The translations under genes were made by a program, and so were the position numbers. This document shows positions 13,575 through 41,286 of a DNA stretch of 64,000 bases, in pieces. Position 1 is the first letter of the stretch, and each line of letters begins with the position of its first letter. Location: assembly GCA_029339195.1 (NCBI GenBank), contig JAPTJF010000189.1, positions 1-64,000 of the forward strand, written 5' to 3'. The DNA comes from Micractinium sp. NFX-FRZ (lineage: Eukaryota; Chlorophyta; Trebouxiophyceae; Chlorellales; Chlorellaceae). The notes below the pieces were generated by a model, which made no database searches, was not told the origin of the DNA, and saw only the letters and a list, made by a program, of their open reading frames with translations.

Positions 13575-14988
13575 CTAGGCCATCCGCACACACCGCGACT
13601 TGGTCTTGCCGGGGTGCGGAGCACCCTTGCTGCACATAACCGGACAATCGTATAGCCTATCGTATAGCAGGAAGACAGCTGAGCACAGCAGGCAGAGCAT
13701 GGGAAGCCAAGGCACAGCGGCCAGCTCAGCAGCCCGCCCCCCACGCCGGCGCTCACCGCTTGCGGGTGGCAGAGGCAGCGGTGATGCCGTGGTAGAGCCG
13801 CAGGTCCTGTGGAGTGACAGGTGCACAGAGCGGGCAGCATAGGGGGGGTGCATTGTTGGCTGGGAAGGCTTGAGGCAGAGGGTGCAGGTCACGCCAGCTG
13901 GGTGCATGGCTGCTGGGCAGTGGGCGTCACACTCCCTGGCGGTGCTCGTCCCAGCGCTGCGGCTGCAGCACCAGCTCACCCGCCCCGTCATGCCCGCCAC
14001 GCTGACGTGGCGCTCCAGGAAACCCTCGCTGGGCTCGTTGCCCGGCCAGTTGCGTGGGTCTGCAGGGGAAGGCCAGCCAGTGTGCCGGCTCAGGAGTGGA
14101 TTGGCAGGGCACACCAGCAGCGCACACAGGAGCTTAACACACGAGCAGGGGCTGCGAGCCACCAAGGCTGCATGCACACGCAGCCCCGGGCCGCCGCCAC
14201 CCTCCGGCAGCAGCTATCAGCAGTTGTTTCACCCCGCTGCCTGCTGCGCAGCAGCCATCCCCAGTGCCCCCCCACCTCCCTGCCTCACCCTCCTTGTCTT
14301 TGGGGCTGCGGCGCCCCCCTTTCTCGCACTTGGCAGCCAAGTAGTCCAGCGCCGCCTGAGGCAGCACCGAGGCCTGGCAGCCCGGGCACTCCTGCGGCAC
14401 ACGCCACACCTCCTCCCTCCACCGCCGCTCCACACAGGCCGATGCATCCGCCACTGCTGGCTCCACCGCTGCCCCTGCCTTGCACTCCACCTGCGCCCCC
14501 CCGCCTAACGCTGCCTCTGTCTGCGCGCCTGCCATCGCTGCCAGCAGAGGCAGCGCTGCTGCCGCCCTTGCCCTCTGCTCTCCCCCCTCGTGCTCTGCCC
14601 TGGCTTTGCCGCCTGCTGCTCCGCCTGCTGCTGCGGCAGCGGCCTGCAACGAGCGACCCCCTGCTGCTGCCGCATCATCTTCTGCAGCTGCGGGTGGCAC
14701 CACATCCAGGCAGGCCGCCTCGGCAGCCGTGCCGCCACGAGCTGCCCGTTGTCTCCGCTGCTCAACTGCGTGCGCTGCGCCAGCACTGTCTGGCCGCTCA
14801 GGGGGCTGCCAGGGTGCGGCACAGCTGTGTCTGTGCAAGGCAGGGGCAGGGGTCGGAGCTGCAGGGGAGGCGGGCGGGCTGTCTGTGGCTGGCGGCAGCA
14901 GGCCCGCCCCGCCCGCTTCGGGGCCAACGCCGAGCAAGGGGATGTGAAAGAGCTCTGGCTGGGAGTCGAGCTGCATGTCAGGCTGCAT
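13575..14988 (-). CDS. Family paralogue A: CxxC / PRNWPGN module protein
   Basis: I do not recognise the family. Exons: 14988-14289, 14059-13980, 13806-13757, 13629-13575 (about 294 residues). The N-terminal 190 residues are Ala/Pro-rich. Then comes the shared module: 'ECPGCQASVLPQAALDYLAA' with a third Cys in 'KCEKGGRRSPKDKE', an 80-base exon encoding 'DPRNWPGNEPSEGFLERHVS' plus 'VAGMTGR', and an exon 'DLRLYHGITAASATRKR'. Intron phases are 1, 0, 2 as in paralogues B, C and E. The third exon could instead end at an in-frame TGA overlapping its own donor (13753). I prefer splicing to the basic tail 'KGAPHPGKTKSRCVRMA' because B, C and E splice at this spot in the same phase. The ATG at 14988 may lie in an intron: an acceptor 'ATGCAG' directly precedes residue 3, in the phase used by B to E, so a short upstream exon may be missing. 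Confidence 0.65.
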
Positions 14989-15843
14989 ATGCAGGCAGGG
15001 AGCAATGGCTGGGTAGTAATGAGGGGGAGTCTTGGGGCGTCTGCAAATCCACTGCCAGCCTGGGCGGCAACGGTGCCCGCCGCCCGCTGGCCTTCACCTT
15101 CAAGGCGTTCCTCCCTGCCTTCCTAGGCATCCCGCACCTTTGGAGTGACCTCTGCCTTCGAACGCAACGCACAAAGCGTCCGGGAGTAGGCAGACGGTTT
15201 GAGCGAGGCGGATGGCGGGAGGGCGCCGCTGCCAGTGCCTTGGGTACAGCCGCAGGAACCTTACGCTGGCACAGCGCACCAGGCACTGCCAGCAGGCCGC
15301 CTGGACTCTTTCAGCTGGCGGCGCTGGGTGAACGGGCCGCACGAGTCTATACGTCAGCCTGTCTGCTTGACGTGGTACGTCACGCAACAGAAGGGCGTTG
15401 GCTCGCCCTTGGAGCAGTAAACCACAGGTGATCCTGTTGCCCGCCCCACAGCAGGCACAGCGCCGGCCGCCGCAGCCGCCGCCGCAGCAAAAAGAGAAGG
15501 CAAGCAACAAAAAAGGTCCCCAGCCCATCGTTCTTTCAGGGCGCTAGGTGGGATGTTAAGACGAGCCTTGCATAGGGCTGATGATCCGGAGCGATCGCCT
15601 GCCAGGCCTGCACTGTGAACCGCCACAGGCGGGCGCTGCGGGCCACAGTGCAGGCGCTGGGGGCAAGGGAAGGTTGAGCAGCAGTGCCAAAGGAAGCAGT
15701 ACTGATGAGACTGAGCATGCACAGAGATGCGAAACCCTTAAAAAACCAACCACGAAGAGAAAGTGGAGCAAGTGTGATAATGTAAACAGGAGCCAAAGTA
15801 AACTACAAAAAGCAGCACACTCGAGATCCTGCAAATCTCCACT
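14989..15843. other. Intergenic between paralogues A and B
   Basis: This 855-base stretch should hold the gene A promoter and perhaps a short, unidentified first exon of A. Base composition falls around 15750-15830 (A-rich). Nothing else recognised. Confidence 0.4.
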
Positions 15844-18610
15844 TCAACGGCGGCGGGCACGCCCACGGCTGCTGCCCGCCTGCCTGCCTGCCTGCTCAGT
15901 TGGCGCCTCGTCAGTGCGGGCCCGCTTCCTGCCGCCGGCCCCGCCGCCCGCCCCCTCCGTCGCCAGTTCCTCGCCAGAACGTTGCCTGCTAGTAGTGCCC
16001 TCCTCCATCACCTCCGGCGGCTGGCCAGAGCGCGCCCTCCCGCTGCCTGCCCGCCTGCCAGCCGTGCTGCCTGCCCGGCCGCTGCCTGCCCGCCTGCCAG
16101 CCGTGCTGCCTGCCCGGCCGCTGCCTGCCCGCCCACTGCCTGCCCGGCCGCTGCCTGCCCGCCCACTGCCTGCCCGGCCGCTGCCTGCCCGCCCGCCCGC
16201 CCGCCCCTGGCCGCCGGCCTCCTGCTCAGCTGGAGGCACGTTGCCAGCGGGCGCCGCCGTCACACCAATACAGTGGAGCGTCTTCTGGGCCTTGCGGGAC
16301 AGGTCGATGCCGTATTGCCTGCACAGCCAAACAGCACAGGCCCGGCAGTTGGTGGCTGCCCTATGTCAGCAGGGCCCAGCAAAGGCGCTGCAGCCATCAG
16401 TGGCACCCAGCTCAGGCACCTGCGGCCATGTCGCTTACTTTGCCCGTCTGGTGAGGAAAGACTTGTCGTAGGCGTGGTAGCACACGGCGAGCTGCAGCCC
16501 GGCGGGGGGCGTTGGGACCAGGAATGGGGTGAGGCAATGAGGGGTACAGTAACTGTTCTTACTTGCGGGAAGAGCAGTTGAGGTGCTCGGGGACCCCAAA
16601 TTCAGGAGGTGCAGACGGTGGCAGTTGAGATTGCTGACCATCCGTTCGCATTGGGGCGTGAAGGGGATGCACAGGTTAGGGCCGGCCAGCTAGATCGGGC
16701 TACTGCCTAAGAAGAATGAAAGCAGCTGGGGACAGCCGCGGGCAGCCCAGCAAGCACGCAAGGCTGCCTGCAGCTACGGCTCACCATTGCCGACATGCTG
16801 GCGTCAATCAGGTGGCTCCTCAGAAAATCCTCGGTAACCAGGTTCTCAGCCTGGTTGCGCCGGTCTGCAGGCCACATTGCAGCACAGAAGGTCGTGGGCG
16901 TGAGTGTCGGTGCCAGGACCCGGACATTGCAGGAGGGCAGGAGACGGGGGGGCAGGAGCGCAGAAACGAGGGCAGAAGGGCTCTGCAGAGGGGCATGCGG
17001 GGCACATGCAGACGGGCACATGCAGACGGGCACATGCATGCAGGCGGGTTTCGTGGGCACGGGGCAGGTGATAGAGCGCACATTGTGGAGGGAAGGCAGG
17101 CGGACAGTTGAGAAGCAAGCATGCAGAAGGGAGGCCGGGAGGCTGGCTGGCCACCAGTGGGCAGGCAGCAGGGTTTGGCAAGCAGCAGGCAGAGAGCACG
17201 CCAGGAGGCAGGCAGGGCACAGGAGGTGAAGGCAGGGAGGCAGGGAGGCAGACACGCAAGCAACCAGGCTGGCTCTCACCCTCCGGGTCGCGCGTGCTGC
17301 GGCGGCCACGCTTCGCCGCCATGTCCAGCTCAGCCTGATCCCGCGCTGGCGCGCAGCAGCAGGGGCAGCAGGCCTCAAGGAGGGCGTCCTTGCGCTCTCC
17401 CGAGTCCACCACGCTCCGGATGACCATGGAGGGACCGGGGGCAGCGCCCTCTGTGGCTGCTGCGTGGGTGCTGGCGCTCGCGGCCGCCTGTGCGCCGCCG
17501 GGCTCTGCAGTGGCCACCTCAGCAGAGGGGGGCGGCGCAGCTGCCGCCGTGGGCCGGCCCTGCTGCTCTACCGTGCCCTGGCCCTCCACGCCACCCTCAC
17601 CGCCTGGCTTCTCTCCTCCTGCCACCTCCACTCCATCGGCCGCCTCGGCCACTGGAGCGACCAGGGCCAGCGGCTGGGGCAGGCATTGAGCAGGAGCCGA
17701 GCTGGAGGCGCCGGCGCCAGGCAGCGCCATGGGCGGCACGCCCATCTGCCCGCCACCCAGCGCTGCTGCTGGCTCCACCGCTGCGCCCCCCACAGCTGCA
17801 TCTGCCCCCTGACGCGCCGCCATGTCGGCCTGCGCTGCAGCCGCTGCCTGGGCCGCCGCTGCAGCCTCTGGCCCTGCATCCCTGAACAGCTGCAGCAGGT
17901 CTGCAACTGCGCCGGATGCGTGCATTCCCTGCCCCGCTGCCGCCCCTGCCGCCGCTGGCCCACACACCGCAGCCCCGGCAGCCGCCGCAGCGCTCATGCC
18001 CAGGGCTGGGCCGTGCCAGGCAGAGGCGCCGGGCTGCACAAAGGCAGGCCCTCCAGTGGGCAGCACAGCCCCAGCCACATCAGCGCCCGAGCCAACCGGG
18101 ACCCAGCGCGGAAACTCCCGGGGTGTGGCGGTGGTGGGCAGCAGCGGCGCATGCTGGCCCACCCCCGAGGCAGCGAACCCAACACTCGGCAGCGGCATGC
18201 TGGGCGCGCCCACACTGAGCAGATCAGGAGGCATGCTGGGTGCGCCCATTGTGGTCACCAGGCCGCCCAGAGAGGCAGGGGATGTAGCGCCGGCGGCCCA
18301 GTGCGGCGGAGTATGCTGAACAGCAGCCGGGGTGGACATGGGGACGTAGCGGTGCAACGGGGGAGAGAGGTGGAGGCAGCACTGCAGGGTGTGGGCGCAG
18401 GGTGGCAGCGTGGCCCAGGTGAGGTCCCTGTAGGAGCGGTGCCCATGACCCCTTGCCAGTGGCGTCGGCGATGGCTGTCAACATGCGTCACCAAGGTGTT
18501 CTGCAGTGCAAGCAGCTGCACGGCATCCATCGCTTGCCCTCGGCTCTCCCCCTCCCACAGTGGCAGCACAGGGCACCCACCTCATTGATGCTGATGCGCT
18601 CGATGCTCAT
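15844..18610 (-). CDS. Family paralogue B: diverged CxxC / PRNW module protein with AGSGR-repeat tail
   Basis: Five exons: 18610-18581, 18381-17280, 16864-16785, 16491-16439, 16318-15844; 579 residues. Exon 1 encodes only 'MSIERISINE'. The middle is Ala/Pro/Gly-rich and clearly paralogous to C ('FPRWVPVGSGADV' against 'LPGWVPVGSGADV'). The shared module is degenerate: 'ACCPCCCAPARDQAELDMAA', then 'DRRNQAENLVTEDFLRSHLI' where other members have PRNWPGN, then 'LAVCYHAYDKSFLTRRA'. The tail 'QYGIDLSRKAQK' resembles gene E 'GYDLKFPSQPKW'. It is followed by a minisatellite-encoded AGSGR stretch and a basic end with 'GRKRARTDEAP', a likely nuclear signal. The start is uncertain: the frame stays open upstream to about 19087, and an internal ATG at 18339 exists. 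Function unknown; nuclear role inferred. Confidence 0.7.
16030..16205. repeat. Coding minisatellite in paralogue B
   Basis: Tandem copies of about 15 and 36-45 bases built from 'gctgcctgcccgcc' and 'ggccgctgcctgcc' encode repeated AGSGR and STAGRR on the minus strand. Confidence 0.8.
16940..17265. repeat. Purine-rich simple repeats in paralogue B intron
   Basis: The intron between exons 2 and 3 contains three tandem copies of about 16 bases ('gcacatgcagacgg') near 17000 and many CAGG/GCAGGCAG iterations further on. No coding signal. Confidence 0.6.
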
Positions 18611-20053: not shown

Positions 20054-22217
20054 TTAGCGCCGGCGGGTGCGCTTCCGGCTGCTGGGCCCTGCCTCGCTGT
20101 CAGAGTGCCCCCGGCTGGCTCCCTCTTGCCTGCCTGCCCCACCGCCAGAGCGCTCCTGCCTGCCGCCCGCCTGCTCGCCGTCAACCGGCCCGTCTGCCAG
20201 GGGGGCAGCCGGCTCGCCATCTCCCTGCCCGCCTGCCGCTGGCTGCGCCTGCTGGACGCCACCCTGCCACCAGTCCATTTCACTGCACGGCAACGTGACA
20301 AAAGGGCTACTTCAACTCAGCGGCAGCAACAGAAGCATACAGATAAATACCTTGGACAGCTCCTTGTCTGGCCTGTTCAACATGTGGTCTCACAGCACCA
20401 GGCAGCGCCCACCTCAGCTCGCGGCGGATCTTCCACACCGATACGCCATGGTATGGCCGGAGCCCCTACAGAGCAGCCAGGAGCAACTTTGGGCGCGTTG
20501 ATCGCAAGCTCAGTAACCACATGCGCTCCCTGGGCCACGCCCCGCCAGCGCCTGCCAGCATGCACCATTGTCGGCACATGACAACCCCCTGTGCACCACC
20601 ATCTAGTTAAAGGGCGGCTGGCCCAGGCCCAGCGGCCCCACAGCGTGCACCCGCTCTTCATGCTCACCCGCTGCGACATGCCGTACAGGTGGATGTGGAG
20701 GTACAGGAACTCCTCGGTGGGCTCGTTGCCGGGCCAGTTGCGCGGGTCTGGAGGGAGGTGGGTGCACACAGAGCGGGGCTTCGTGTGAAGTGGTGCGCAA
20801 GTGGGCAGTGCACTGACTGGTGCGTGGGTGGGCTGCTTGCACCTCCATGCCACAGCCTGCCAATTTCCATGGCTCGTCAGCATGTCTTGACGACACCGCA
20901 TGTAGCCCAGTGCGCCACTCACCATCGTCATCCTGGAGGCTGTGACGGCCCCCATTGACAGACTCGGCGTGCAGGTGGTCCAGTGCCTCCTGCGGCAGCA
21001 CCTCCTGCCAGCAGGCGCGGCAGTAGCGGGCAAACGTGCGTCTCTTGCCCTTGTACCGCCGCCACACCGTCTCCAGCCCTGCCGCCGCGCCCTCCTCGCC
21101 AGCCATGCCCCCTGCTGCAGTCGCTGCCGCCGCCGCCGCAGCTGCAACTGCTGCCTCCCCTTCTAGCGCTCCCTCCTCCAGCTGCTCCCCCCCCTCATCT
21201 GCCGCTGCCGGCGCTGCCGCCTGCGGTACACCCTCCTCCATGCCTGCCTCCTCTTCACCAGCTGCACCCTCTCCAATCTCCATCCCACCAACCGCCTCGG
21301 CTGCTGGTGCGGCCAGGGACAGCGGCTGGGGCAGGAATTGAGCAGGAGCCGAGCTGGAGGCGCCGGCGCCAGGCAGCGGCATGGGTGGCATGCCCAGCTG
21401 CCCCCCACCCAGCGCTGCAGCTGGCCCCACCGCTGCGTCCCCCACAGCGGCATCTGCACCCTGAAGCGCCGCCATGTCGGCCTGCGCTGCAGCCGCTGCA
21501 GCCGCCGCCGCTGCCACCGCCGCCTCTGCATCTGCATCTGTCAGCTGCAGCAGCTGCTCCTGCAACAGGTCTGCTGCTGCGCCGGGTGCCTCCATCCCCT
21601 GCCTCCCTGCCGCCGCTGCCACCCCAGCAGGGCCTGCTGTCCCTGCCGCTGCTTTGGCAAATGGCGCAGCCCCGGCAGCCGCTGCAGCGCTGGTACCATC
21701 GGCGGCTGCAATCCCGCTGCCTAGCGAGGCAGGCGGGGTGGGCTGTGCAATGGGCGCCCCGCCAGTGGGCGGCACAACCCCAGGCACATCAGCGCCTGAG
21801 CCCACTGGAACCCAGCCAGGAAGCTCCCAGGTTGTGGTGGTGGTGGGCAGCGGTGGCACAAGCATGCCCACCCCGCCTGCAACAGGCTGGCTCAGCAGAG
21901 GCATGCCGGGCGCGCCCACCGCAGCCGAGCGCATGGCGATGGCAGCAGAAGGTGTCGTGCTGGCGCCGGTGAGCAGCTGGGCGGTGAAGCCATGGTGCGG
22001 GGATGACGCGTGCGCGCTAAATTCCGGGCGCGGGCGCTGGAGGCCACTCTGCAGCATGCAGGGGCGCAGCCAGCGAGGCGGCACGGCCACCACGCCGCAG
22101 TCAAATTACCAATTGGCCAACCTTGCCAGAAGAAAATTTGGCAGCAGAGCGGTGCGACACGGAAGCGGCGGCAGCACTTACCGCGCTAGCGCTAGCGCTG
22201 CCGTGGGCGCCGTCCAT
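20054..22217 (-). CDS. Family paralogue C: CxxC / PRNWPGN module protein
   Basis: Five exons: 22217-22182, 22048-20923, 20747-20668, 20372-20311, 20282-20054; 510 residues in frame. Exon 1 encodes 'MDGAHGSASASA'. The long exon is Ala/Gly/Pro/Gln-rich and shares whole blocks with B. The module is well kept: 'RRYKGKRRTFARYCRACWQE' followed by 'VLPQEALDHLHAESVNGGRH', then 'DPRNWPGNEPTEEFLYLHIH' and 'LYGMSQR'. The third Cys seen in A, D and F is Ser here. The next exon, 'GIYLYASVAAAEL', matches the LYHGV exon. The tail exon ends 'SSRKRTRRR', like B. The donor after exon 4 is weak (AA|GTAGCC) but keeps the family phase. Likely nuclear; function unknown. Confidence 0.72.
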
Positions 22218-24057
22218 GCTCAAAGGACGGCAGGGTGTGACGCGGTGACGGTGCGGTGGATTTGCAGGCCCGCAGACTGCCTGCAGCATTGTGGAGCGTT
22301 TGCCAGAGGGACAGTGGGGTGGAGGGTCAGAAACAGTTCCGCGCGGGCTCTGGTTGTGGTCGTGATGCGCGTTGCGTTGACTCATGGGCGCGTGCCGAGC
22401 GGGGCGCAGCCTGCAAGTGGTGGCATCAGCCAAAGCTTGCCCCTTTGACAAGTTCAGCGCCGGGTTCAAGGACTTCTACAGGCAGGAGGGCAGGCTCAAT
22501 TCATGTTTGATCTCACTGCAAGACATCCGCCGGGCGGAGCTGCGGGCGCACGCGCCCGCCCCTTGCCGCCGCTGCGGCTGACCGCCCGTGCTAAGCGCTC
22601 CACGAGGCGCGCATCAGGCACCCTCCTTCGCCCATTTCTCACTTTTGTGCCTCCAGCAGCGCCTTTCGGCTCAAGATGCCCCGTTCCAGACAGCGCTCGA
22701 GTTCTATCAGTTTCTATTGTCTGATAATCGGCAGATGGCTGTGTGCCTGCAACCAGAAGCAGGAGAGTAGTGGTTTGCGATCACATTTAACACCGTTACA
22801 AGGTCGGTCGCTGCCTTAGGGCGCGCCATGCGGCAGCGCAAAAAATGCTCGTCACTCACCCGCGCCATAGGAGGTTGCAGTCTACAGAAAGGCGGTTTAT
22901 CCATACACGGCGTTGGGTTAGGTAGGGATGCCCGACAAGGCGGCATGATGAGCGACATGGCCTGCTGGGCATGCTGAGCTCGTTCGCCGACGACTGCATG
23001 TCTTTACCTGGTGTGTCTTCAAGGCTTCTTATAACTTGGTATCTGTGCGTCTCACACTTCAGGCAAATGTTTCAGCTCAGGCAACTTGGTTTGATTATCC
23101 GTCTATCCTCCAAAAGCCAATGGATGTTATCCTCCTGTCTTTGGGTCAGCTTCCGTCGCTTGCTCATGACATGCACTTGGCGCCCGGGCGGTGCTTTATG
23201 TGTGCGCTGCTGGCAATGCCCGCCTCCAGTACTCCTCAGTCCCTAGTCACTGTGGAAGCCAGCCGAAGTAAATGCTGCCAGGAACTGAGCGCCTTGGCTT
23301 GCGCTGGAGCGCCTGCCCACTAGCATGCCATGCGGACGACGGTGGGCGCTGTCGGCGCCATCCCTTCCAAACTAGCAACGATGAGGTGTGGTGGCGATCA
23401 GGCTCACATCACGTCATTGCGTTAGTCTCATTACATTATCAGGTAGAAGCTATATAGAGAGCGCCAGCTTTTCCAAGTGGCTGGCAGCGACGTCACAACT
23501 CGTCGCGTCGTGGCCGGTAGGGGATGAGCTGGGAAAGGCGAGCAACAGTTCGAATGAAAGACTACTTAAAATGCACGCAGGTGCCTCACAGGCAGTCACA
23601 CACCCACAATACAACGGCCACAAGTACAGCAGCAATGCAGTGAAGGAAATTGAAGCACACGGCAGCACGTCATTTCAGTGCTGCACCTGGGAATCATGCA
23701 AAATCAAGTGCAGGTGACGGCGCGCATACTACACGCTGGTCTTCTCATGCCAGTGACGCTGGCAGGCCGGGCTCCACTTGGTCGCTGCCCTCCCCCTAGA
23801 GTACGAGGCGTGGGCACCTTTCGGGAAGGGCAGCAGCCAGGAGTCTTGTGGCACGTGGGACGAGCGGCCACATGTGCCTTGTCAACAGCCCATCTGGGGA
23901 GTTGACAACGACCTCTCACTGGCCGGCTTGTTCGGTTGCCTTCCTGCGAGGCCACACGTTTGGCAAGTCGAGTCAAGCAGAACGCCAACTCAGGGAGGCA
24001 GCCTGATCAGACGACCATGGCAAGGTACGCCTCTACTAGGAGTATGAGTGCAGCTTC
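22218..24057. other. Intergenic between paralogues C and D
   Basis: This 1.84 kb stretch has no recognisable gene. On the minus strand 23896-23704 is open and could be a tail exon of D (see findings). A minus-strand TGTAA near 23431 could end such a transcript. Composition around 22980-23700 is noticeably less GC-rich than the genes. Confidence 0.4.
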
Positions 24058-26303
24058 TCACCGCTTGCGGCAGCCAGTGCTGGGGGTGACGCAGTGCTGG
24101 AAGAAGATCGCCTGCAGCAAAGGAGGGAGGCACAGTGTGGGCAGGGTAAGGCTCCACCCCAGCCTTACCCCAAAGCGAAGCAAACGGGACACCAAAGGGT
24201 GCGCCGCCGGGGAAGTGAGCATGGCCTGGCCACACACACAAACCTCACAACGACACCACGTTGTGACATGCACGATGGCCTGCCAAGCATGCCAACGTGC
24301 CACAGCCGCCCACTCACCCGCAGGGACATGCCGTACACCACTGTGTGGAGGTGCAGGAACTCCTCGGTGGGCTGGTTGCCCGCCCAGTTGCGCGGGTCTG
24401 CAGGGTGGGCCAACCATGGGCATGCGTGTGAGTGTGCACAGGGGCGCAGGCGGGCAGTACACATGGGCAGTGCCGATACATGATGTGCTTGCACGCAACG
24501 CTTGCATCTCTCAAAACTGCCCGGCCAAGCAGAGCCAGCTGGCTGCCTGGAGCAGCGGCAGCCCCTGCAAGCCACCAGTCCTTCTGGACCATAACATGAT
24601 GCCCCTCCACGCGCGTGCTGCCCACCCTGCATGTTCCTGTGGTTGTAGCGCCCGCCTTTGGCGCACTTCTCCTCCAGGTAGTTGAAGTCCGCCTGTGACG
24701 GCACTGGCTGGCCGCATCGGCAGACGAGGCGGCAATCCCGTGTCTCGCCCTTGTACTGCCGCTGCACCAGCGCCGCCTCTGCGACCCCGCCTGCATCACC
24801 CGCCATGCCGTCCGCTTCCATCGGCTCAACCTCCTCTGCCGCTGCCGCCCCCATCACCTCTGCCCCCACCGCCTCCTCCGCTGCCGCCCCCACCACCTCC
24901 TCCTCCCCACCCTCCTCCTCCGCCTCGTCCTCCTCTTCCTCAGCTGCCGCCTCCTCCTCCTCCTCCTCCTCAGCTGCTGCCTCCTCCTCCTCCTCCGCCT
25001 CCTCAGCTGCTGCCGCCGCCGCCTCCTCCTCCGCCTCCTCAGCTGCTGCCGCCGCCGCCTCCTCCTCGGCCTCCTCCTCTATCTCTGCCTCCTCCTCACC
25101 TGGTGCATGTGGCTCCTCACCTGCTGCCGCCCCCATGCCTATTTGCACCGCTGCCGCATCCTCCGCGGCCTCAAAATCCCCCCCTGCTGCCGCCGCTGCC
25201 GCCGACGCCACGCCAGAAGCACCCAGCAGCGCTGCGCTACCCAGCGCAGTGGTGTGCCTGTCAAACTCGTCAACCAGCCAGGGCTGCGGCGGCACAGGCT
25301 TGCAGACGTCAAAGCACGGGATGGGCGCACGGGCAGCGCGCGTGGAGGTGGTGGGCGGCATGTCCATGCACTCGACCTGCCCACCAAACTGAGGCGGGCT
25401 GGGGGAGTGCAGGAAGTGGGTGCGGGGCTTGGGGGGCCCATGCAAAGGGTTTGTGTGAAGGGGGGAGGGTGTGGGGAAGGGGTGTGTGCTGGCGGTGGAG
25501 GACGAGTGGGTGGGTTGTGTGCGAGGAGGTGGGGTCCGGTACGAGGGTGCTTGGTCGTGGCGAGCTGCTGCAAGGATGTCCCGCGCCTCGTGTGTCAACG
25601 GAAAATCGTCAAAAGGGAGCAGTTTGTCCTGCAGCATCGTGATGGGCCTGGGGTCAGTGGGCCAGTGGGCAGCAGGTGGGGGTGGGTGGTGCAGGCGCCG
25701 AGTGGCAGGGGGGCAGGGCGGCAGTGAGGGCGGGGGGAGCAGACGGCAGTGGGGGGCCAGGTGGGCAGGGGGGAGCAGATGGCGGTGGGCCAGGGGGCAG
25801 GTGGCAGCGACTTGGTGGGGATTCAGTGAGCAAAAGCTTAAGAAAGAGCATTGAAGGAGAACACAGCGGGGCGATGGGCTGGGGAATTGGAGACAGCAGT
25901 GTAGCTGTGGGCCAACACGGGTTGGGGCAGCACCGAGGTGGTGGGCCAAGCGAGTTGGTGCGTTGATTAGCAGGGGACGCAGCTGCTTGATGGGACAGCG
26001 GCTCAGAAGCAGTGGTGGGGAGAGATATCAGGTGACGGAGTGCGTGGCGAGACAATGGCAGGAGGGTGGTGCAAGGTGGTGCAAGTGCCAGGGGGCGGGA
26101 TGCGCGAGTGCCAAGAGAGCACAGGGGGCTGTCTCGTGCAGCGGCCAGTGACAGGTTGCAGGAACAATGCCCGCGGGCATAGCAGTCGCATGCTTGCATC
26201 CCAGCCAGCCACTCCTACGATGAATTTGACGGCACCGCCCCGCCACACTCACCTCGCCGCATGCATGATCGACGTTGTAGACGTCCTGCGAGAGGTAGGA
26301 CAT
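24058..26303 (-). CDS. Family paralogue D: CxxC / PRNWAGN module protein with acidic tract
   Basis: Exons: 26303-26253, 25628-24626, 24397-24318, 24111-24058; 395 residues if the TGA at 24060-24058 is used. Exon 1 encodes 'MSYLSQDVYNVDHACGE', matching in position and phase the first exons of B, C and E. The long exon begins 'DKLLPFDDFPLTHEARDIL', then Pro/Ser/Thr-rich sequence, then a Glu/Ala tract of roughly 90 residues. The module follows: 'RQYKGETRDCRLVCRCGQPV', 'EEKCAKGGRYNHRNMQ', 'DPRNWAGNQPTEEFLHLHTV' with 'VYGMSLR', and 'AIFFQHCVTPSTGCRKR'. As in A, the terminal TGA overlaps a consensus donor (CG|GTGAGA), so a further tail exon is possible. Function unknown; the acidic tract is the kind seen in chromatin or activator proteins. 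Confidence 0.72.
24880..25100. repeat. CCT/GCC trinucleotide tract encoding Glu/Ala in paralogue D
   Basis: A long run of 'cctcctcct' mixed with 'gctgccgcc', including a near-perfect 42-base duplication around 25000-25060, encodes EEEAAAAAAEEAE units on the minus strand. Confidence 0.8.
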
Positions 26304-27800: not shown

Positions 27801-27954
27801 GACGGCATTCATCATGTTTAGTAGGCTGCTGGTGTTCAGGAAGATGAGGCAAGGGAGGCAATATTCAACCCAAGCAAGTCTCACATCTGAAACAGAACTG
27901 AGAGGACGAGCGGCTGAAGGCTCCCACCACGCGTCCCAGGATTCTAAATGCTTG

Positions 27955-29067: not shown

Positions 29068-29090
29068 GGAGGGAGGGAGGGAGGGAGGGA
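29068..29090. repeat. GGGA tetranucleotide microsatellite
   Basis: About five uninterrupted 'ggga' units. Confidence 0.85.
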
Positions 29091-29214
29091 GTAACGACGC
29101 GAGGTACTTTTCCAAGGAAGGAGAGGGAGGAAGGGCGGCTGACTAGCGAAGGGTGCACGGCAGAGTGGAAGAGCAATGTTAGGGTCTCAGGTGACAAAAG
29201 GTGAGCCGGCAGCT

Positions 29215-29290
29215 GGAAGAGAGGCTGCCAGCTGGGAAAGTCGAGTAGGCTGGGGAAGAGGGGCTGCCAGCTGGGAAAGTCGAGCAGGCA
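29215..29290. repeat. Two-copy tandem repeat
   Basis: The segment 'ggctgccagctgggaaagtc' plus flanks occurs twice with a period of about 45 bases. Confidence 0.75.
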
Positions 29291-29592
29291 CCTAGGTGTT
29301 GTACAAAGTACATAGAGAAGCACTGAGGACAACGGACCGTGCTAACACATGAATGGCAAAGTGGCACCCCACAACTCCGTGCTGCATCTGTGTGGGAGGG
29401 CACGGGAGCGGGGCCCGGGGGTACATGGCCGACGGCGGTAGCCAGCAAGCACGGGCAGGCATGTCCATGTCCCAGCTTTGCAGCTGGGGTGGAGGGAGAG
29501 GGCCGGAGGGGCCGGGCACGGCAGCCACGGTGCGACCGCGCCGCCAGGTCAAGCAGTGCCTGGGGTTTTGTGAAACTGAGGTGACGGGCACG

Positions 29593-32477
29593 TCACTTGC
29601 TGCAGCGTGGGCGCTTGCCGGCCATCCGCTCCTCCGGTCCCTCGCTGGCACCCTCCTCCTCGGCGGGCTCCTTGCCAGCGCGCCTGCGCCGCTTGGCGCT
29701 GGTGCCCGCCTCCTGTGCGGTCTCCTTGCCGGTGCCTGGCTCCTCCTCGGCATGCGCCTGGCTGGTGCCTGGCTCCTCCTTGGCGGGCTCCTTGCCAGCG
29801 CGCGGGCGCTTGGCGCGGCCGCGCGCCAGCTCGGCATGTGCCTTGCTGGTGCCTGGCTCCTCCTCCGCCGCCTGGCTCGTGCTGGCACCCTCTGCCAACT
29901 CCCCACCATCACCTGCCTCCTTGTTGGGCGGCGCCTTGAGGTGCCACTTGGGCTGCGAAGGGAACTTGAGGTCGTAGCCCCTGCACGGGCAGCGCCACTC
30001 TGTTCACACTGCACACCATCTGCCTGTCTTTGGGCGTGGCCCTTGCTGCACAGGCAGCTGCTGGCAAGAAGGCGTTAATAGCAGATTGAATGCACCCCAA
30101 CCTCAGGCACGGTGCTCACTTGGCCATGCGCTGGATGGTGGTGTGGCCCGTCTCGTAGTCGCCGTAGCGGTAGCACGCCAACATCTGCAGCAGCAATGAA
30201 AGCCAGCAGCAGGCACTTGGCACACCAGTGAGTGCCACACCGAGCACTACATTGAAAGGGTCCAGGGGTAGGCAGACCTCACCCGCAGTGACAGGCCAGC
30301 TTTCAGGTGGCGCTTGAAGAAGGCCCTATCCAGCTCCGCACGCCGCCCTGCAGCTCACAGGAGGTGAGAGGACGTGACGTTCTCAGTTCTCATCCATAAA
30401 CAACAAGACAGAACTTTGTGTCCTCACAGGCAGGAATGCAGCAAGCGGGCTGGCCAGCCGGCCGGCAGGAAGGTAGGTGGAAGGCACGGCCAGGCAGGCA
30501 TGCGAGCATGCGAGCATGCATGTGAGCATGCAAGCATGCAGGCAAGCAGGCGGGCAGGCAGGCGGGAGGGCATGCAGGGTGCTCACTCTTAATCACGGCG
30601 GCTGGGGGGCGGCCTGACTTGCGCTGGGTCTGCTCGTCCACCTCCAGCGCTGGCGCGCCGCAGCCGCAGGGGCAGAAGGTGGGGATGGGGAACAGCTTCC
30701 CATCCTGCCCCACACCCACAGCCATGAGCACATCACCAGGGGCAGGGGGTGCGCCCGAGGCGGGGAAGTGCACAGCTGCGCGGGAGCTGGCCGGCTGGGA
30801 TGTCACCTCGGCTGCTGCCACCGCCGCTGCCATGGGCGCACCCTGCTGCCCGTCCGCCTCCTGCCACTCCACTGCTGCCTCCTCCTCCACTGCCGCCTCC
30901 TCCTTCACTGCTGCCTCCTCCACCTGCGTTGCTTTCACCTCCGCTGCTGTAATCTCCGTTGCCGCCTCCTCCACCGCCACGGTGCCCAGCGACGCATCTG
31001 ACATGTCCCAGCACACTGCCGCCATCGTCGATGCCAGCGGAGTGCAAAGGACGACCTCTTGCACGTCCGCTGCCGCCGCCTCCTCCACCACCTTCAGTCC
31101 CGCCAGCCACTCCTCATCATACTTGCACTCGTCTGCCGTCCCTGCCGCCTTGGCCGCAGCCGTCGCTCCTGCGCAGGTGGGAGGGAAACAGGTGTGGAAC
31201 GGGGCGGCAGCACCCTGCTCCTCCGACACGAACACCGCAGGCGCCGCCGGCGGCAGCAGAGCAGCCAGCACAGACCAGAAGGCAGCAGGTGTGGCACTTG
31301 GATGCATGTGGGCAGAGTATGAGCAGGGAATGGCAGGCTTGAAACTCCCTCGCAGGTTGCGCCGCCAACGGATATGAGCAGATTGCTGCAACGGGAGGAC
31401 CTTTGGTCACAGTGCAGGCTGCGGAGGTGGTGGGCAGCAGGGACATGCATTCACCAAATGAGTCTCACCGTACAGAGGGCAGGTTGTGGTCAGGGCGGGG
31501 CCGGGGGGCATGCCGAAGAGAGCACGGGCGGTAAGCAGTGTGATTGCGCTGTAGTCCTGCACGCCACCATTGGTTGGGCCAGACGCCAGGTGTGTGTCGG
31601 GCGTGCCCCACTGCAGCATGGGATGGCATGACATTTTGTGTACAACAGCCGAGGCAATCACCTCGCCAGGTGAGCAAACTGGGCTGGCTGAAGCTGCGCC
31701 TTCCTGGAGGAAACTGCCAGCCAGGAAGGACGGAAGGAAGGAAGGAAGCCAGCCAGCCAGGGGAGGGGAGGCTGGCAGCGGAATGCTCCCAGCCTGGGAG
31801 GGGCAGGGCAGCCACGTGAAACCACTTGCCTGGTTGGTGTTGACGCAGTTCATGCCCTCCATGACCAGCGGGGAGGTGTCGCCAGCCGGCGCAGGCAGGG
31901 CCGCTCGCACATTGGTGCGTGCGCGCCTGCGCCTGAGAGCAGGCTTGCGGGGCTTGGGCGTGGAGGTGGTGGGCGGCAGGGGCGTGCCGCTCTGCTGCGC
32001 ACCGTGCACAGGCGGGATGGGGACGGCCAGGGTGAGAGGGGGAGGCGTGGTGAAGGGTGCGAAGCCAGGGGGTGGTGCCGAGGTGTCGTGGCCCGGCAGC
32101 TCCTCCTCCGCCATCAAAGTGGTGCTCGTACTCCCATGCACAATGAACTGGTGGTCGTACTGCAGCGTATCATGTTGAGGAAGGGACGGCAGGCGGTGAG
32201 AGGGAGCAGGCGGGGCCGAGGGAGCAGGACGGCGGGGGGGCAGGCAGGCAGGGGGACAGAAGCGGAGCTGGGCTCTGTCCGAGAGTTGCGCCGGTGCACA
32301 ACTCGTGGATAGCCAGGCTGGCGACTGGAGGCGAGAGATGTGGCGAGAGGCGCACAGAGCGGCGCAGGCGGTGGCTGTGGCAGCACGTACCTCATCGTTG
32401 TTGATGACGTACATGTCGGGGCCGGCGGGCGTCATGGGGCCGGCGGGCGTCATGGGGCCGGGGGCGGGCTGAGACAT
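29593..32477 (-). CDS. Family paralogue E: most diverged module, basic/acidic repeat tail
   Basis: Seven exons: 32477-32391, 32159-31830, 31610-31469, 31168-30587, 30347-30283, 30184-30120, 29980-29593; 552 residues, all phases consistent. The intron after 31830 has a GC donor (CAG|GCAAGT). Exon 1 ends 'GPDMYVINNDE', like D 'SQDVYNVDHACGE'. The module is recognisable but altered: 'FPIPTFCPCGCGAPALEVD', then 'RRRAELDRAFFKRHLKAGLS' with PRNW lost, then 'MLACYRYGDYETGHTTIQRM' (compare B 'LAVCYHAYDKSFLTRRA'). The tail starts 'GYDLKFPSQPKWHLKAPP' and continues with repeats of the type 'EEEPGTSKAHAE' and 'AKRPRAGKEPA', ending 'GKRPRCSK'. Several basic clusters suggest nuclear location. Two additional exons (110 and 47 codons) precede the usual long exon. 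Function unknown. Confidence 0.72.
29610..29870. repeat. Degenerate coding repeats in paralogue E tail
   Basis: Repeated units such as 'tggctcctcctcggcatgcg' and 'cgggctccttgccagcgcgc' encode alternating EEPGTS and KRPRAGKEPA blocks on the minus strand. Confidence 0.75.
30480..30585. repeat. GCATGC-rich intronic repeat
   Basis: Many overlapping 'gagcatgc' and 'caggcgggcagg' iterations in the intron after exon 4 of paralogue E; GCATGC is self-complementary. Confidence 0.7.
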
Positions 32478-34169: not shown

Positions 34170-37100
34170 ATGGATGCTGGCGCCACCACCGGCGGCGTGC
34201 CGCCGCCCGAAGCACTGGGGTGCAGCCCAATCAGTTTGGAGGACCTGGACAGCGTGCTGCCCGGCAGGAGCTTCTCTGAGCGTGCTTTGGAGGCCTTCTT
34301 TAGGTGAGAGGCGTCTGTTGCACACAGCACGGCTTGTCGGGCAGGAGGTGTGGGCAGAGGTGTGCGGCAGGAGTGCCTGGGCAGGGTGAGAGTGTTGTGT
34401 CACGACAGGGGCTGACGACCTGTGCCGAGGGTGTTGCAGGCCGGGCTGCGGGTCAAGGCTCGCTTATGCGGTCCTGGGCAGGACCGGGGCACAGGGTTGC
34501 AAGGCGCACAAACCTGTTGGAATGGGTTCGGCCCGCCCGCCTCCGCTTGCCTCACCACACACTCTCCCTAATGCTCACCTGCCGCCTGCTGCCCGCCTCC
34601 ACCTGCCGCACCACTCTCTCTCCCGAATGCCCACATTCTGTTTGCTGCAGCAACCTGCACTCCAGCCTGCTGGCCGCCGGCGCAGCACGGAACTTTGAGC
34701 GGTGCCTGGTCTTCCAGGGCCCCGGTGTGCTGGCCGACCTGCGTCAGCTGCTCCTGCCAGGGCAGCGGGAGGGGGAGGTGGCCCCCGCTGCCCTGCCCAA
34801 CCTGGAGCGCTTCCTGAAGGCGAGCCTCACAGTGGGATGGGATGTAGCCACATGCCGTGGCTAAAGGCTGGGAGCGTGCATGAAGGCATGGGGGACGCCG
34901 GCTTCCGGGCGGCGCCTGTCGTGATATTCAGGCCTCAAGCTGCACTGCATGGGCCCGCTCCCGGTGCCGCTCCAGCTTGCCTGCAAACCACTTCGGCTTT
35001 CTGCCTGTGTGCCCGCCCCCACCCCTGCAGTCAAACAACCCGCTGAGCAAGCAGTTCCTGCTGCTGCCCCTGGTGGACGCCAGCCACGCCTCCCTGCTCA
35101 TCGTGTGCCAGCTGGGCGAGGGCCTGCGGGCAGCGCTTGGCGGCAGTGGCGGCATGGGTCCCGAGCGCAGCGCCGGTCCCTGCATGCTGCACCTGGACTC
35201 CCTCTCACGTGAGTGCCTGCAGCATGTGCGGCCCGGCGTGGAAGGCCGCCGTGAGTTGGTAGCCTCTTGCGGCTGTACTGGCAGGCTGCAGGGAGCGCCA
35301 CCCGGCAGGCGCCGACAGCCCAGCCACTGCGGCAGGTGCTGGCCGCCCAGCCAATGCAGGCAGGCGCAGGCGGCTGGGCCACTGGGAAGCTTACCCCCCA
35401 GGCATATGCCCTCCCTCTTGCCCGCGCCCTTGCAGTGCGCACTGGCCGTGGCCACACACCCAACCTCGCTGCGCTTCGAGCGGAGCTGCAGCGTGCAGCG
35501 CAGCAGGTGCGTGGGAAGGGCGCTGGCGTGAGCCTGGTCTTGCTGACCAGCAGCACCGCGCTACCTTGCCTCCCCAACTGCGTTGCTTTGCCTTGCGCCA
35601 TGGCCGGTGCACCTTTGCGGCATTCACAGCTAGTGTTCACTGCACCACGCACGTTTGCAGTGGGACCCCAGCGCTGCAGCTTGGGAGCTGAATGACGACA
35701 CCCTTCCCCTCGTCACTGCCAGCGTAAGCTCATGCCCTGCCCACGCATGGGTGTGCCTGGCAAGGTGGTGCATGCATGCATGAGCGGCTCGCACGGAGCT
35801 GGCCCCGCCTTCCTGCCACCTGAAGAGCGCGCCCTCCTGCCGGTCCGCCCCCCGCCTGCCGGCGTGCTGCCCGCCGTGGTGCCCTCACTGACCTACCAAC
35901 CTCCCACCGTCTATCTCTCCTGCCTGCAGGTGCCGCAGCAAAAGTCGGATGACGGCGGCGCCGCCTACATGTGCACCAGCGCACTTTACTTCCTGGCCAA
36001 CCTCCCGCCAGGTGTGGGGCACTATCACTACCGGGCTGCCATTGGGTGCACTCCCGGCTCTTGCTCTGGCCGCTGGCCGCTAGCAAACGAGGCAAAGCAG
36101 AGTGGACCCCACGGCAGTGCTGCTGCTGTGTGCCAATGACATCACCGCTCTCCCCCGCGCTGTGCTGTGCTGTGCGCAGAGGTGGATGCGCAGGATGTGA
36201 GGAAGCTGGCGGACTACAAGGCCCATGCGTGCGACCTGTTTGAGGGCACCCCGCACTGCTACCCAGGTGCAGCGTGCCTCGCAGAGCCCACACCCTCCTT
36301 GTTGCATTACCGCCAGCCCTGTAGCATGCAGCACGCCAAAGGAGGAGTGCTGAGCACAGAAGGCTGTATCTGTTGCGCCCACTTTTGTATGTCCGAAGAT
36401 GTGCTTGCCCGCCCAGCAATCATGCTGCCCCCCCGCTGCCCTGCTGTGCGTGCCTGCAGGCTTCCTCACGCGGGACTGGTACCCCGACAACGTGCCCGAG
36501 TCGCTGCGCAAGCTGGTGCTGCGCCAACTGCAGGTGGGTGCCCGCCTAGCTGCTGCTGCTGAGGTGGCGCTGAGGTGCTGGGCTTCTAAGAACGGTGAAG
36601 AAAAGCGCATGCAAGGGCAGGCCGGCAGAGCGGCTTCCTTGCCTGATGTGCTGTCGACATCACAGTACCTTCCGTTGTCGGTGCGCTGCCGGCTGGCCCC
36701 ACCTGCAGGTGACGGTGTCGACAGCCACCCAGAGCGCTGCAGTTGCCCGCGGGCTGCAGGAGCGTGCGCACGCGGTGGCGGCACAGCTGCAGGCAGCATC
36801 CAAGCGCCCGGTGAGCTTGCTGCGCTGCAATGGTGCGCCCGTGCAAACTAGCCGGTAGCAGAGCATGCGCAGCAGGGTCCTTTAGCTGCTCCTTTCTCAC
36901 GCACACAAGCCGCCAGGTGCACACAGGAAGTCAGGTAGCTCTGCGCAACATGCTTGCTGCTGACATGTAGTCCGGCTTGCCCGCCCCCTGCAGTTCATGA
37001 TGCCAGAGGCACGGTGGCTAAAGCAGCAGCAGCTGAAAGACGCACGGCGACGGCAGTTGCACCGACAACAGCCGCCGCAGCAGCAGCAGGAGGAGACGCC

Positions 37101-37620
37101 GGAGGCGCTGCCACCGCAGGCACCTCAGCAGCCACCAAAGGAGCAGGGCGCATCACCAAAGTTACAGCAGCAGCCGGAGCACCAGCCCACACAGCAGCAG
37201 GAGCAGTCGATGCCGCCGCCGCCGCAGCAGCAGGAGCAGTCGATGCCGCCGCCGCAGCAGCAGCAGGCGCAGTCACTGCTGCCGCCGCCGCAGCAACCGG
37301 GGCAGGAGCAGCTACCGCCACATCCACCACAGCAGGCTGTTGAGCAGCAGGAACACATCGGGGGCAGCTCGCAGTTGCGGTCTGTTCCGGCGCGGCCACG
37401 GTCACTGCCGCCGCTGTCTCCTCCGCTGTCGAGAGTGCCGCTGCAGCAACAGCTCAGTGGCGGCAGCTTGCAAGCAATGGCAACTAGCCGCCCTTTGGCA
37501 GCAGCCAGGGCACCGGCATCATCAGCCGGTGGTCTTCAACCTGAGCACAAGCAAGGTGTTGCAGCAGAGGCTGGGGCGCCCAGGTGCGTCCCACGGATGG
37601 CACCGGTTTGCCTTGCATAG
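34170..37620 (+). CDS. ULP/SENP (C48) protease-like protein lacking the catalytic Cys, Gln/Pro-rich tail
   Basis: The family cleaves SUMO or NEDD8 from proteins. Nine exons: 34170-34303, 34651-34819, 35031-35208, 35436-35506, 35930-36011, 36180-36266, 36460-36533, 36709-36810, 36994-37620; 507 residues. The second intron has a GC donor (AAG|GCGAGC), required by phase. Family features: 'PISLEDLDSVLPGRSFSERA' near residue 20; the His site 'PLVDASHASLLIVCQLGE'; the Asp site 'MLHLDSLS' followed by 'GHTPNLAALRAELQ'; and the oxyanion Gln in 'VPQQ'. The normal 'DCG' of the catalytic Cys site reads 'SDDGGAAYMCTSALYF', so the nucleophile is missing and the protein is probably a pseudoprotease. The Trp after the active His is Ala. 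The C-terminal 200 residues are Gln/Pro-rich, beginning 'MMPEARWLKQQQLKDARRRQ'. The fold call is good; loss of activity is inferred. Confidence 0.65.
37083..37345. repeat. CAG/CCG trinucleotide tract (poly-Gln/Pro)
   Basis: Repeated cag and ccg codons encode Q-rich and P-rich runs, including two copies of QEQSMPPP. Confidence 0.8.
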
Positions 37621-37819
37621 GTGCCAGTGCGCCTTGCATAAGTGCCAGTGCCCTGGCTGTGCACATGCTTTCCATCCGGCCTGCCTTTGAGACCGACCAA
37701 TGACTGACCCGTGGGCCCTCGTGTGCTTCCCACCCATGCACAGGGAAGGCGAGCAGCCTGGCCTTCGGCACGCCGGCGGCAGCCCGCACCGTCAGCGGCG
37801 GGCCAGCGCAGCAGCAGCG

Positions 37820-40800
37820 ATGCAGCGCCTTGCGGTGGACAGCGCTGCCGCTGCTGCTTCATCTGATGGCAGCGAGCGGGGGCGCAGCAGCAGGGATGGG
37901 AGCTTCAGCGACTACTCAGAGGAGCACAGCGGGCTCAGCAGCAGCTCCACAGAGCACGAGTACGACCCCTCCCAGGCAAGCAGAACAACCTGTCCTTTTT
38001 ATCCATTAGCAACAGAGCCTGAGGGTAGGCTGTCCTCTGTGCGGCTGCTTGCAGCGCTCCTGTGTGTTGCGCCTGCTGGTTGCTGGCCCCTGTGCGGTGC
38101 GCCTGCTGGTGCCGCGGCCATGCGCTGCCTGCTGCCTGCTGCCTGCTGCTGGTTCTCGTTTGTCTTCAGCCCGCGCCGTACCACGCGCTGCCCACTGCGC
38201 TGCCTCCCGCCACCTGGACTCCCCCTGCAGGACGGTGACGATGAGTTCAAGTGGCCGGCACACCGCAAGCGCAGGCGCCTCAGCGCTACCAGCGGGGCGG
38301 CCGCAGATGCCGCTGTCCACCCAGCCGCCAAGCTGCCCAAGCAGGCAGACCCGGCACCGCAGGCACCTGCAGCAGCCGCGGTGGCACAGAAGGCACAGCT
38401 GGACCTCCCGGAAGGGGCGGCAGCGCATCAGGCGGCGGCAGCACAGCAGGCGGGGCAGGCGGCTGCTGATCGGGCGGCACCGCCCCCGGCCATGGACCCT
38501 GCTGACGCTATGTCGGGTGCCACTAGCCGAGGGCTCAAGCGGCTGGTGAGCAAGGATGCTCGCGGCCGCGTCACCATAGCAGGCACCGGATATTACCTGG
38601 GGCGGTTTGGCACGGCATGGGCAGCCGCGCACGCTGAGGACATGGCGGTGCTGTGGAAGCTGGGAGCAGAGGTGGCAGGTGCGAGGGCGCGGCACCCTGG
38701 GGCAGCGCCTGGGCAGTGCATGCATGCTGCGGAGGCGGAATCCGACGCGTTGCTGTTGCTGCTTCCGCCGCTGTGCATGTTACTGCTGCCGATGTGGGCT
38801 GCCTGCCCGCCACGCGCTTCTCTGAGTGCATGCTACACTTCAAGCTTAAGGCACACATGCTGTGCACAGCTGATGCGCATGCGCTTTGCTTGCTGTGCGG
38901 TGCAGAGGCCAAGGAGAAGCTCAACTTTCCTGCGGCGCACTACAGCCAAGGTGAGTGCGGCTGCGTGCTTCCTGTGCAGTGCGCACCACCCCCACACGGG
39001 CGCACGCCTGCCGAGCCTTGCACTCCGTATCGTACACGGCCGCCCCGTTGCACTCTTCATATGAGCACACAGCCCAGCACCCATCATCAGGTGTGCGTGC
39101 CCACCAGCACTGCTCCCAGCTAGATCCTCTTGGTCCTTGTCAACTAGTGTGCATGCGTGCCTCTGCCTCGTGCAGATGAGGGGCTACTGGAGGCCATAGC
39201 CGGGTGCAAGGACACCGAGGCCTTGAAGGCGCTGGCACAGCAGCGCTATGGCGGCGCCAGCGTGAAAACGGGCAGGCGGCCAAAGGGTGCAGCGCCCAGC
39301 GGTGCCCACCCTGCCCCAGGGGCGCTGGCTTCCTCCACTGCAGCTGCGGCCTCGCACGTGGCAGGTGGTGGCGAGCCGAAGGGTGTGGCTGGGCAGCACG
39401 GCGGAGCTCACGCCGCAGCAAGCAGCAAGCGGCCAGGGTTGGATGCGACAGCGGCTGGTGCGCCTGCCGCCAAGAGGCAGCATGTGAGCGGCCCAGCTGG
39501 CACAGCTGGGGCTTGGGATGCAGCCAAGCAGGAGCAGCACGCGGGGCAGCAGGAGGAGAAGGCGCCCCTCCCGACACCAGCAGCGCAGCTGCGGGAGCCC
39601 AAAGAGGAGCCCAAGGAGGAGCCCAAGCAGGAGCCCAGGGAGGCGCCCAAGCAGGAGGTTGACGTGGCGGAGAGCCTGCAGCACGCTCTGGCACTCATGG
39701 CGGCCGCGGAGTGCGCCGACGAGGGGCAGCGGTCGTCCCAGCAGCTGAGCGCAGTGGTGCAGGCCTTACGGCTGCTGCGAGTTGAGGCCAACCTGCAGCT
39801 GGTGAGTGCGAGGCTGCGTGCTCAACTGTGCTGAGCGCATCTCCAAGCCCTTTCGGGCCCCCCTGTGCGCCTGCCAGCATCCCTGCCTGCCTGCCCCCCT
39901 CTGCCCCTGCCTGTATGACTACCTGCCTGCCTGCTTGCCTGCCTGACGTAACAGTCGTGAGGCATCAAAATCGCTACCGCTGCCCCTCTGCCCCTCGTGC
40001 AGGCGTATGTGGAGTTGTATTCTGAGTTGCCAGCGGAGCAGCAGGACGTGCAGTTCGTGGCCATCTACGATTTGCTGCAGGATGTGGATGCATGCGATGC
40101 CACTAAGGAGCTGGAGCGCTTGGTGCAGCAGCAAGTCGGTGAGTGGGAGGCGGCAGAGCACTTGGCATTACGGGTTTGGGGGTGGAAAGTTTTATCACCA
40201 CTTTCTTTAGCATGGGTTGTTCTTGTTTCTGGAATTTTACTAAGTTTGATTACTTACCTTAGTTATTGGTCAGCATCTGTTAGCACCAGGCAGCAGGGAG
40301 GTGCGCTTTGGCAATGCAGCTGAGCAACTGCGGGCAACACACCAGCGCTGATGCTGTCTTTCTTGTGACCATCCCCTTGCTTTATGCCGTGCAGAGCCGA
40401 CAACAGCAGCAGCAGCACGGCCGTCGCCAGCAGCAGCGACTGCAACAGCAGCAGACAATCTTGCTGCTAAAGCAGCATCGGTGGCAGCACCGGCGGCAGA
40501 TGGTGCAGAGGGAGCAGCAAAGGCGGGGGCGGCACAGCCGGCACAGGCGGCAAAGGCAGGGCCAGCAGAGGCGCAGGCGGCAGAGGCGTTTGTGAAGCGG
40601 CGGTATCGGCAGCACTCGGCATGGGTGCACGCGCGGTGCCCTGGCTGCCAAGGCCCGGTGCTGCCTCAGGAGGCGCTCGACCATCTGGCTGAGAAGTGCG
40701 GGAGGGGGGGGAGGCTTAACCCCAAGGATCAGAAGGGTGAGGCGGGGAGGGGTGCTTTGGCGGGGGAGTTGGGGTGTGGGGGACGCTAAGCAAACGACAC

Positions 40801-41286
40801 AGCTTTGCGCAGCCTTGCGTGCCCGCTGCTGCCCGCTAGAGGCAGCGTCAGCGTGCTTGCATTCTGAAAATCAGGTGATAGCCTGGTTGCAGCGGCGTGG
40901 GGTGGCTTTCGACTGGATGTAGTGCTGCCGCTGGTTGCTGCCCCTTCTGCCGCACCGGTGAAGCAGGGTACCCCTGAGCCTGCACGTTGGTCCTTCCCCC
41001 GTGCAGACCCGCGCAACTGGCCGGAAAACCAGCCAACCGCTGATTTCCTGCACCAGCACTTGAGCGTGGCGGGCATGTCGGCGCGGGTGAGCACTGCTCT
41101 GCCACAGCTGCAAGGACAAGACGTGCAAATTTGGTCAATTTGGGGGTGCAAGTGTCGCCTTGTCCCGTGCCCATGGCGCAGCCAATAATCCTCTAGCTCC
41201 CCCCCCCAATGCAGGCCCTCATCTTGTACCACGGCGTCGCCGCCTCAACTGCCATTCGCAAACGGGCAGCACTTGACGCAAAATAA
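37820..41286 (+). CDS. Gene F: AP2-like protein fused to a copy of the A-E module
   Basis: Eight exons: 37820-37975, 38231-38678, 38906-38950, 39176-39801, 40003-40138, 40395-40736, 41007-41086, 41215-41286; 634 residues, every junction in frame. The first intron has a GC donor (CAG|GCAAGC). Order of parts: Ser-rich N-terminus; a basic patch 'HRKRRRLS'; an AP2-like domain about residues 160-220 ('GYYLGRFGTAWAAAHAEDMA' then 'EAKEKLNFPAAHY'); a low-complexity Ala/Lys/Glu region; a domain shared with gene G ('VVQALRLLRVEANLQLAYVE' and 'VQFVAIYDLLQDV'); then the family module 'RCPGCQGPVLPQEALDHLAE', 'KCGRGGRLNPKDQK', 'DPRNWPENQPTADFLHQHLS', 'ALILYHGVAASTAIRKRAAL'. The intron 40139-40394 joins the two halves in phase 1; if it is not used, the last three exons form a separate gene. 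The start could also be at 37700 or 37736. Probably a DNA-binding regulator (inferred). Confidence 0.68.
40188..40282. other. AT-rich patch within the fusion intron of gene F
   Basis: About 95 bases such as 'tggaattttactaagtttga' are far more AT-rich than the surrounding DNA. One frame would read as a hydrophobic segment. Confidence 0.6.

Follow-up and report, generated by a model that had tools for sequence, protein, structure and literature searches.

Based on its sequence, the 64,000-nucleotide window from Micractinium sp. NFX-FRZ (the whole stretch of DNA analysed here) contains five or six clustered duplicate genes (A to F) that share a spliced module. With two further genes located elsewhere in the genome (G and H), they constitute a real, small and probably regulatory family, whose module combines a cysteine knuckle with a predicted helix-turn-helix (HTH) and is named by no library that we scanned. 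The cluster is tandem, with F inverted (Table 1). A sequence-only reading had placed it at 13575..41286, and both ends proved exact, as the stop codons of A and F lie at these two positions. GC content is 62-68%, and an Rfam scan of the window gave no match at gathering score.

Table 1. Positions of genes, exons and other features in the window (the first leave-one-out score is that of the best exon).
Feature	Position	Strand	Basis or remark
Gene A	13575..14988	-	Model; leave-one-out 33.1 and 32.5 bits
Gene A exons	14988-14289 (knuckle at end), 14059-13980 (exon 2), 13806-13757 (exon 3), 13629-13575 (basic tail)	-	
Example of predicted HTH exon pair, gene A	13757..14059	-	Register from G, H and consensus through alignment A9
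Gene B	15844..18530	-	Model; leave-one-out 20.3 and 17.5 bits
Gene B exons	18530-18492 (weak donor), 18381-17280, 16864-16785, 16491-16439, 16318-15844 (basic tail)	-	
Gene C	20054..22217	-	Model; leave-one-out 30.8 and 13.8 bits
Gene C exons	22217-22182, 22048-20923, 20747-20668, 20465-20413, 20282-20054 (basic tail)	-	
Gene D	23916..25637	-	Model; leave-one-out 33.3 and 13.8 bits
Gene D exons	25637-24626, 24397-24318, 24111-24062, 23943-23916	-	Cysteine pair CxC, not CxxC
Gene E (probable, divergent)	29593..32477	-	Read from sequence; leave-one-out profile did not recover it
Gene E first exons	32477-32391 (tiny); second from 32159; knuckle exon ending 30587	-	
Gene E later exons	30347-30283 (exon 2, 65 nt), 30184-30120 (exon 3), 29980-29593 (basic tail)	-	
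Gene F	37820..41286	+	Model, eight exons, start predicted; leave-one-out 40.0 and 32.6 bits
Gene F module	40395-40736 (knuckle exon), 41007-41086 (exon 2), 41215-41286 (exon 3)	+	
Gene F AP2-like segment	38231-38678 and 38906-38950	+	Weak alignment
B-C N-terminal coding block 1	B 17619-17880, C 21271-21532		87% DNA identity, 263 nt
B-C N-terminal coding block 2	B ~18165-18049, C ~21874-21758		83% DNA identity, 117 nt

Gene models were built on GT/AG sites, so these sites are no independent proof of splicing; once spliced, the modelled genes A to D and F are free of internal stops, and the module exons are predicted to be spliced across the family. Exon 2 is 80 nt long in A, B, C, D, F and G, 77 nt in H and 65 nt in E, in agreement with the earlier count of five 80-base copies among six genes. 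Counted from the intron that follows the knuckle exon, the module phases are 1, 0 and 2 in A to E (read from sequence in E), and F, which has no fourth exon, has phases 1 and 0. Phases of 0, 1, 0, 2 had been described as common to all members in which the exon exists; the first 0 does not hold, as the intron before the knuckle exon has phase 1 in F and A has no intron at that place. Four basic tail exons had been counted; the tail exon itself occurs in all five genes A to E, and it is basic in A, B, C and E, with KR clusters in B, C and E. A tiny first exon, proposed for B to E, is plausible for B, C and E (13, 12 and 29 codons, respectively) and unsupported in D, the frame of which is open from its ATG; the first donor of B (GTGACG) is weak. 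Two introns are probably of the GC-AG type, as the first donor of F (window position 37976) and the exon-3 donor of H (locus L058, ~4586) both read GCAAGC. The N-terminal parts of the proteins are long and largely low-complexity.

In a leave-one-out analysis of the eight members, we ran a profile of the remaining ones against six-frame pieces from the window and from two further loci, and seven of the eight were recovered. Best-exon scores for A to D and F are given in Table 1; G scored 37.7 bits and H 17.4 bits, and the best reversed decoys reached 6.3-8.4 bits. Gene E was missed, with 4.5 bits vs 8.0 bits for its decoy. The claim that six genes share the module thus holds for A to D and F (20.3-40.0 bits, decoys 6.3-8.1) and fails for E on sequence score. 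Based instead on its layout, intron phases, C-rich start, the segment 'FFKRHLKAGLSLR' and a B-like tail, E is a probable family member. Motif and tblastn scans gave clear matches to the module exons of A, C, D and F and weak ones to those of B, and E was spotted by eye. Among A, B, C, D and F, blastp aligned the module in nine of ten pairs (39-64% identity), the exception being B vs D. When the module introns of these five genes were compared in pairs, nothing useful emerged, the single match (30 nt) being between introns that do not correspond, which suggests that the exons have been kept.

We also searched the genome (66,065,352 bases in 838 contigs, the window being C189) with module queries, using only the first exon for A. 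Gene G (contig C232) was found through weak matches with F and B and is supported by a profile E-value of 1.9e-10 for exon 2; H (contig C19) was found through a weak match with G (E 0.11), with a profile E-value of 4.9e-6. In both, the module phases read from the sequence are 1, 0 and 2, the same as in the cluster. The genome thus holds at least eight members (A to H) on three contigs, and the description of the family as locally expanded is right for the cluster but not for the family as a whole. With H as the query, the search returned only H itself and, weakly, G (E 0.18); with E, it returned E itself and one weak place on contig C37 that has no profile support. Weak places on C105, C326, C92, C63, C37 and C95 yielded nothing convincing by profile (best E 0.17), and further weak matches fell on C617, C294 and C8. 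Gene G runs on into a 775-residue open frame (locus L042, 5754-8081) that is rich in Gln, Ala and Glu and contains KRRRR; this frame has no Pfam domain at E 0.1.

We consider it rather likely that exons 2 and 3 encode an HTH behind the cysteine knuckle. In G, exons 2 and 3 together with the beginning of exon 4 look like a classical HTH ('GMSLRDIGSYHGYTISTLSRRAK'): counting from its first glycine, the turn glycine is 11 residues on and a core residue of helix 3 is at 17. H can be read likewise. Exon 2 would then supply helix 1 and the start of helix 2, and exon 3 the rest of helix 2, the turn and helix 3, placing an intron inside helix 2. This register, with its turn glycine and the spacing of its hydrophobic core, is seen in G, H and the consensus, none of them over any cut-off. 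The matches from four libraries often fell on HTH domains in this one register, all below the cut-off or from a library without one.

The best Pfam match was HTH_38 (PF13936), at E 0.0048 (17.0 bits) for G and E 0.0026 (17.9 bits) for the consensus, below the curated cut-off of 27. The consensus HTH segment matched three Pfam families only, namely HTH_38, MarR and HTH_psq (E 0.09, below cut-off); when the segments were scanned singly, one of the eight members matched an HTH family and another an unrelated peptidase. Against the PDB, G matched FixK2 (E 0.13) and the HTH profile matched the LacI headpiece (E 0.47) beside an unrelated rhoptry protein chain; H and the consensus had no PDB match. 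A full-module profile matched XPF, zinc-finger and RING chains in the PDB, and a profile of the first five members matched RING and zinc-finger chains. Of four NCBIfam queries, two had no match; the families matched were TrpR (0.2) and a sigma-70 family (0.064). In PHROGs, G matched HNH-endonuclease and terminase-small-subunit families (0.053-0.3), which we take to carry HTHs, and H matched a family of unknown function; H had no HTH match in Pfam, PDB or NCBIfam. As a control, 40 shuffled peptides scanned at E 1 gave one match each to four families, none of them an HTH (0/40). Aligned by hhalign to four LacI-family headpieces, the real alignment scored 17.2 with a probability of only 9%; none of 100 column shuffles reached that score, the top shuffle listed being 15.1. 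Classical HTHs prefer a small residue after the hydrophobic position of helix 2. This residue is large in A, B, C, D and F (R, V, R, F and I, respectively), and a proline lies inside helix 2 of C; these copies may therefore be altered.

The residues that never vary in the alignment of all eight members (A6) are two Cys, two Arg, one Phe and the His of helix 1; seven members also have a His close to where helix 2 ends, and E has Arg instead. A third cysteine in the knuckle exon ('KC') is present in A, D and F. From these residues we infer a putative Cys2-His2 zinc site that would tie the knuckle to the HTH. Pfam zinc families matched the knuckle below their cut-offs: Zn_ribbon_Com for the F module (E 0.021, 14.7 of 22.9 bits) and zf_C2H2_13 for the consensus knuckle (E 0.015, 15.3 of 26.5 bits). 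A UBZ-like finger was considered for the knuckle and dropped, its His not being conserved.

FastTree analysis of the eight modules joined A, C, D and F in a single clade (support 1.00) and B with G (0.79), with H and E placed apart. DNA repeats at 76-85% identity link A, C and D around exon 2, and the knuckle exon of A with that of F. B and C share two blocks of N-terminal coding DNA (Table 1), one of which was also seen among the DNA repeats, whereas their modules have ~40% protein identity and fall in different clades, suggesting that module and N-terminus have separate histories; the simplest reading is that gene conversion or unequal exchange likely took place between these tandem neighbours. 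Differences in exon 2 are spread evenly over the three codon positions (77, 81 and 82 in ten pairs). Among A, C, D and F, dN is about equal to dS, and dS exceeds dN in four of five pairs with B; with GC3 at 0.78-1.0 these ratios are uninformative and were set aside, and strong constraint was not seen.

Gene F had been described as fused to an AP2 protein. This fusion is plausible but weak. A segment N-terminal to the module of F does align, in AP2 register, to a genomic AP2 exon (E 0.0031, six-frame pieces of 12 pre-selected loci); however, Pfam AP2 (PF00847; cut-off 33.3 bits) gave no match to F even at E 10, and the segment is absent from the 15 places found in a genome-wide AP2 search, none of which lies in the window and two of which pass the AP2 cut-off. 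The scanned frames of A to E had no AP2 match at E 0.1. Several of the AP2 matches of the genome are clustered on single contigs, C220 (loci L016, L017), C211 (L014, L015, L024) and C192. Directly upstream of F, on the same strand, lies a glutamine-rich open frame (36964-37617), followed in another frame by a Cys/His-rich stretch (~37600-37690); neither has a Pfam match at E 0.1.

Scans of modules, frames and consensus sequences against Pfam, PHROGs, NCBIfam and PDB sequences identified no family at cut-off, in agreement with the earlier reading, which could match the module to no known family. Neither the window alignment nor H matched viral contigs, and the 27-residue exon-2 peptide of C matched no plasmid. 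H had eight phage matches over the HTH stretch, all to Arthrobacter phages at E 3-9, which we judged to be noise. In a set of 5.8 billion proteins, which may not include algal proteins, nothing matched the window module or F at E 10, and none of the papers listed in literature searches described such a family. The family shares with HTHs such as HTH_38, the LacI headpieces and FixK2 a single register for helix 2, the turn and helix 3; in contrast to these, with matches below cut-offs, the family adds a CPxC knuckle and a DPRN linker before the predicted HTH and has His residues at core-like positions and an intron that splits helix 2. RWP-RK proteins have a short, Arg-rich HTH and are common in green algae. 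The module resembles them in its predicted short, Arg-rich HTH; however, RWP-RK was absent from all Pfam scan matches and its spacing before helix 2 differs, and this identity was dropped. The HHCC domain of integrases is an HTH stabilised by zinc, and the putative zinc site here repeats the idea of two His and two Cys; however, the order here is CC then HH, and there was no sequence match.

On balance, we slightly favour a small family of nuclear DNA-binding regulators, a reading to which the low-complexity N-termini, basic tails and predicted HTH point. Each protein would have its N-terminal part followed by a module of ~100 residues, in the order CPxC knuckle, basic GRR linker, 'DPRN' and three-helix HTH, with a basic tail in four of six. 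Helix 3, with an arginine in all eight members, would read DNA; the linker and tail would provide added affinity and nuclear targeting, and the N-terminal part would contact the transcription machinery. The helix-1 and helix-2 His, at core-like HTH positions, may form a single zinc site with the two cysteines of the knuckle. The sequence-only reading had guessed at DNA or chromatin binding, and this guess is strengthened; the predicted HTH, which it missed along with the two outside members and the separate histories of module and N-terminus, would offer a concrete mechanism. It seems doubtful, if conceivable, that the family represents a new class of eukaryotic transcription factor, built on an HTH around a CxxC and two-His zinc site (helices 1 and 2) in the reverse of the integrase HHCC order, in which at least one tandem pair (B and C) exchanged possibly effector N-terminal sequence while the DNA-reading modules diverged.

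The knuckle and HTH could alternatively be the DNA-binding end of an old transposase that was duplicated after its catalytic part was lost. HTH_38 and HTH_psq, both common in transposases or their descendants, were the best and another of the listed Pfam matches, and the family shares with HTH_psq and pogo-type domesticated transposases the occurrence of an HTH in eukaryotic nuclear-type proteins. We think this origin unlikely, as the scanned frames (three long G/H frames and 20 window frames) contain no transposase or other catalytic domain at E 0.1 and the conserved introns favour an old host gene. Four inverted pairs of at least 60 nt occur in 13000-42000, all of them between exon regions of A, C or D and F, and these are gene copies.

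A metal-stabilised fold that contacts protein or RNA, with a coincidental HTH-like spacing, would fit the sub-threshold level of all HTH matches and the weak zinc-finger matches of the knuckle to zf_C2H2_13 and Zn_ribbon_Com; the clean shuffle controls and the repeated matches of separate libraries to one HTH register make this improbable. We regard it as quite unlikely that most of the cluster is made up of duplicates in decay, with low expression or turned into pseudogenes, and that one or two genes among them still work. The cysteine pair of D, one residue closer than in the others, the missing third Cys of C relative to its clade, the barely recognisable E, the low-complexity N-terminal parts and the near equality of dN and dS among A, C, D and F are all as such decay would leave them. 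However, the modelled frames of A, B, C, D and F are open once spliced, their module exons are similar where their introns are not, which argues that the exons were kept, and dS exceeds dN in most pairs with B.

Taken as DNA-binding regulators, these genes are probably fast-changing. If this reading is true, the zinc-HTH prediction would be directly testable, a DNA-binding module unnamed in the scanned libraries would exist, probably in a green alga, and tandem regulators would be able to change their N-terminus and their DNA-binding module independently.
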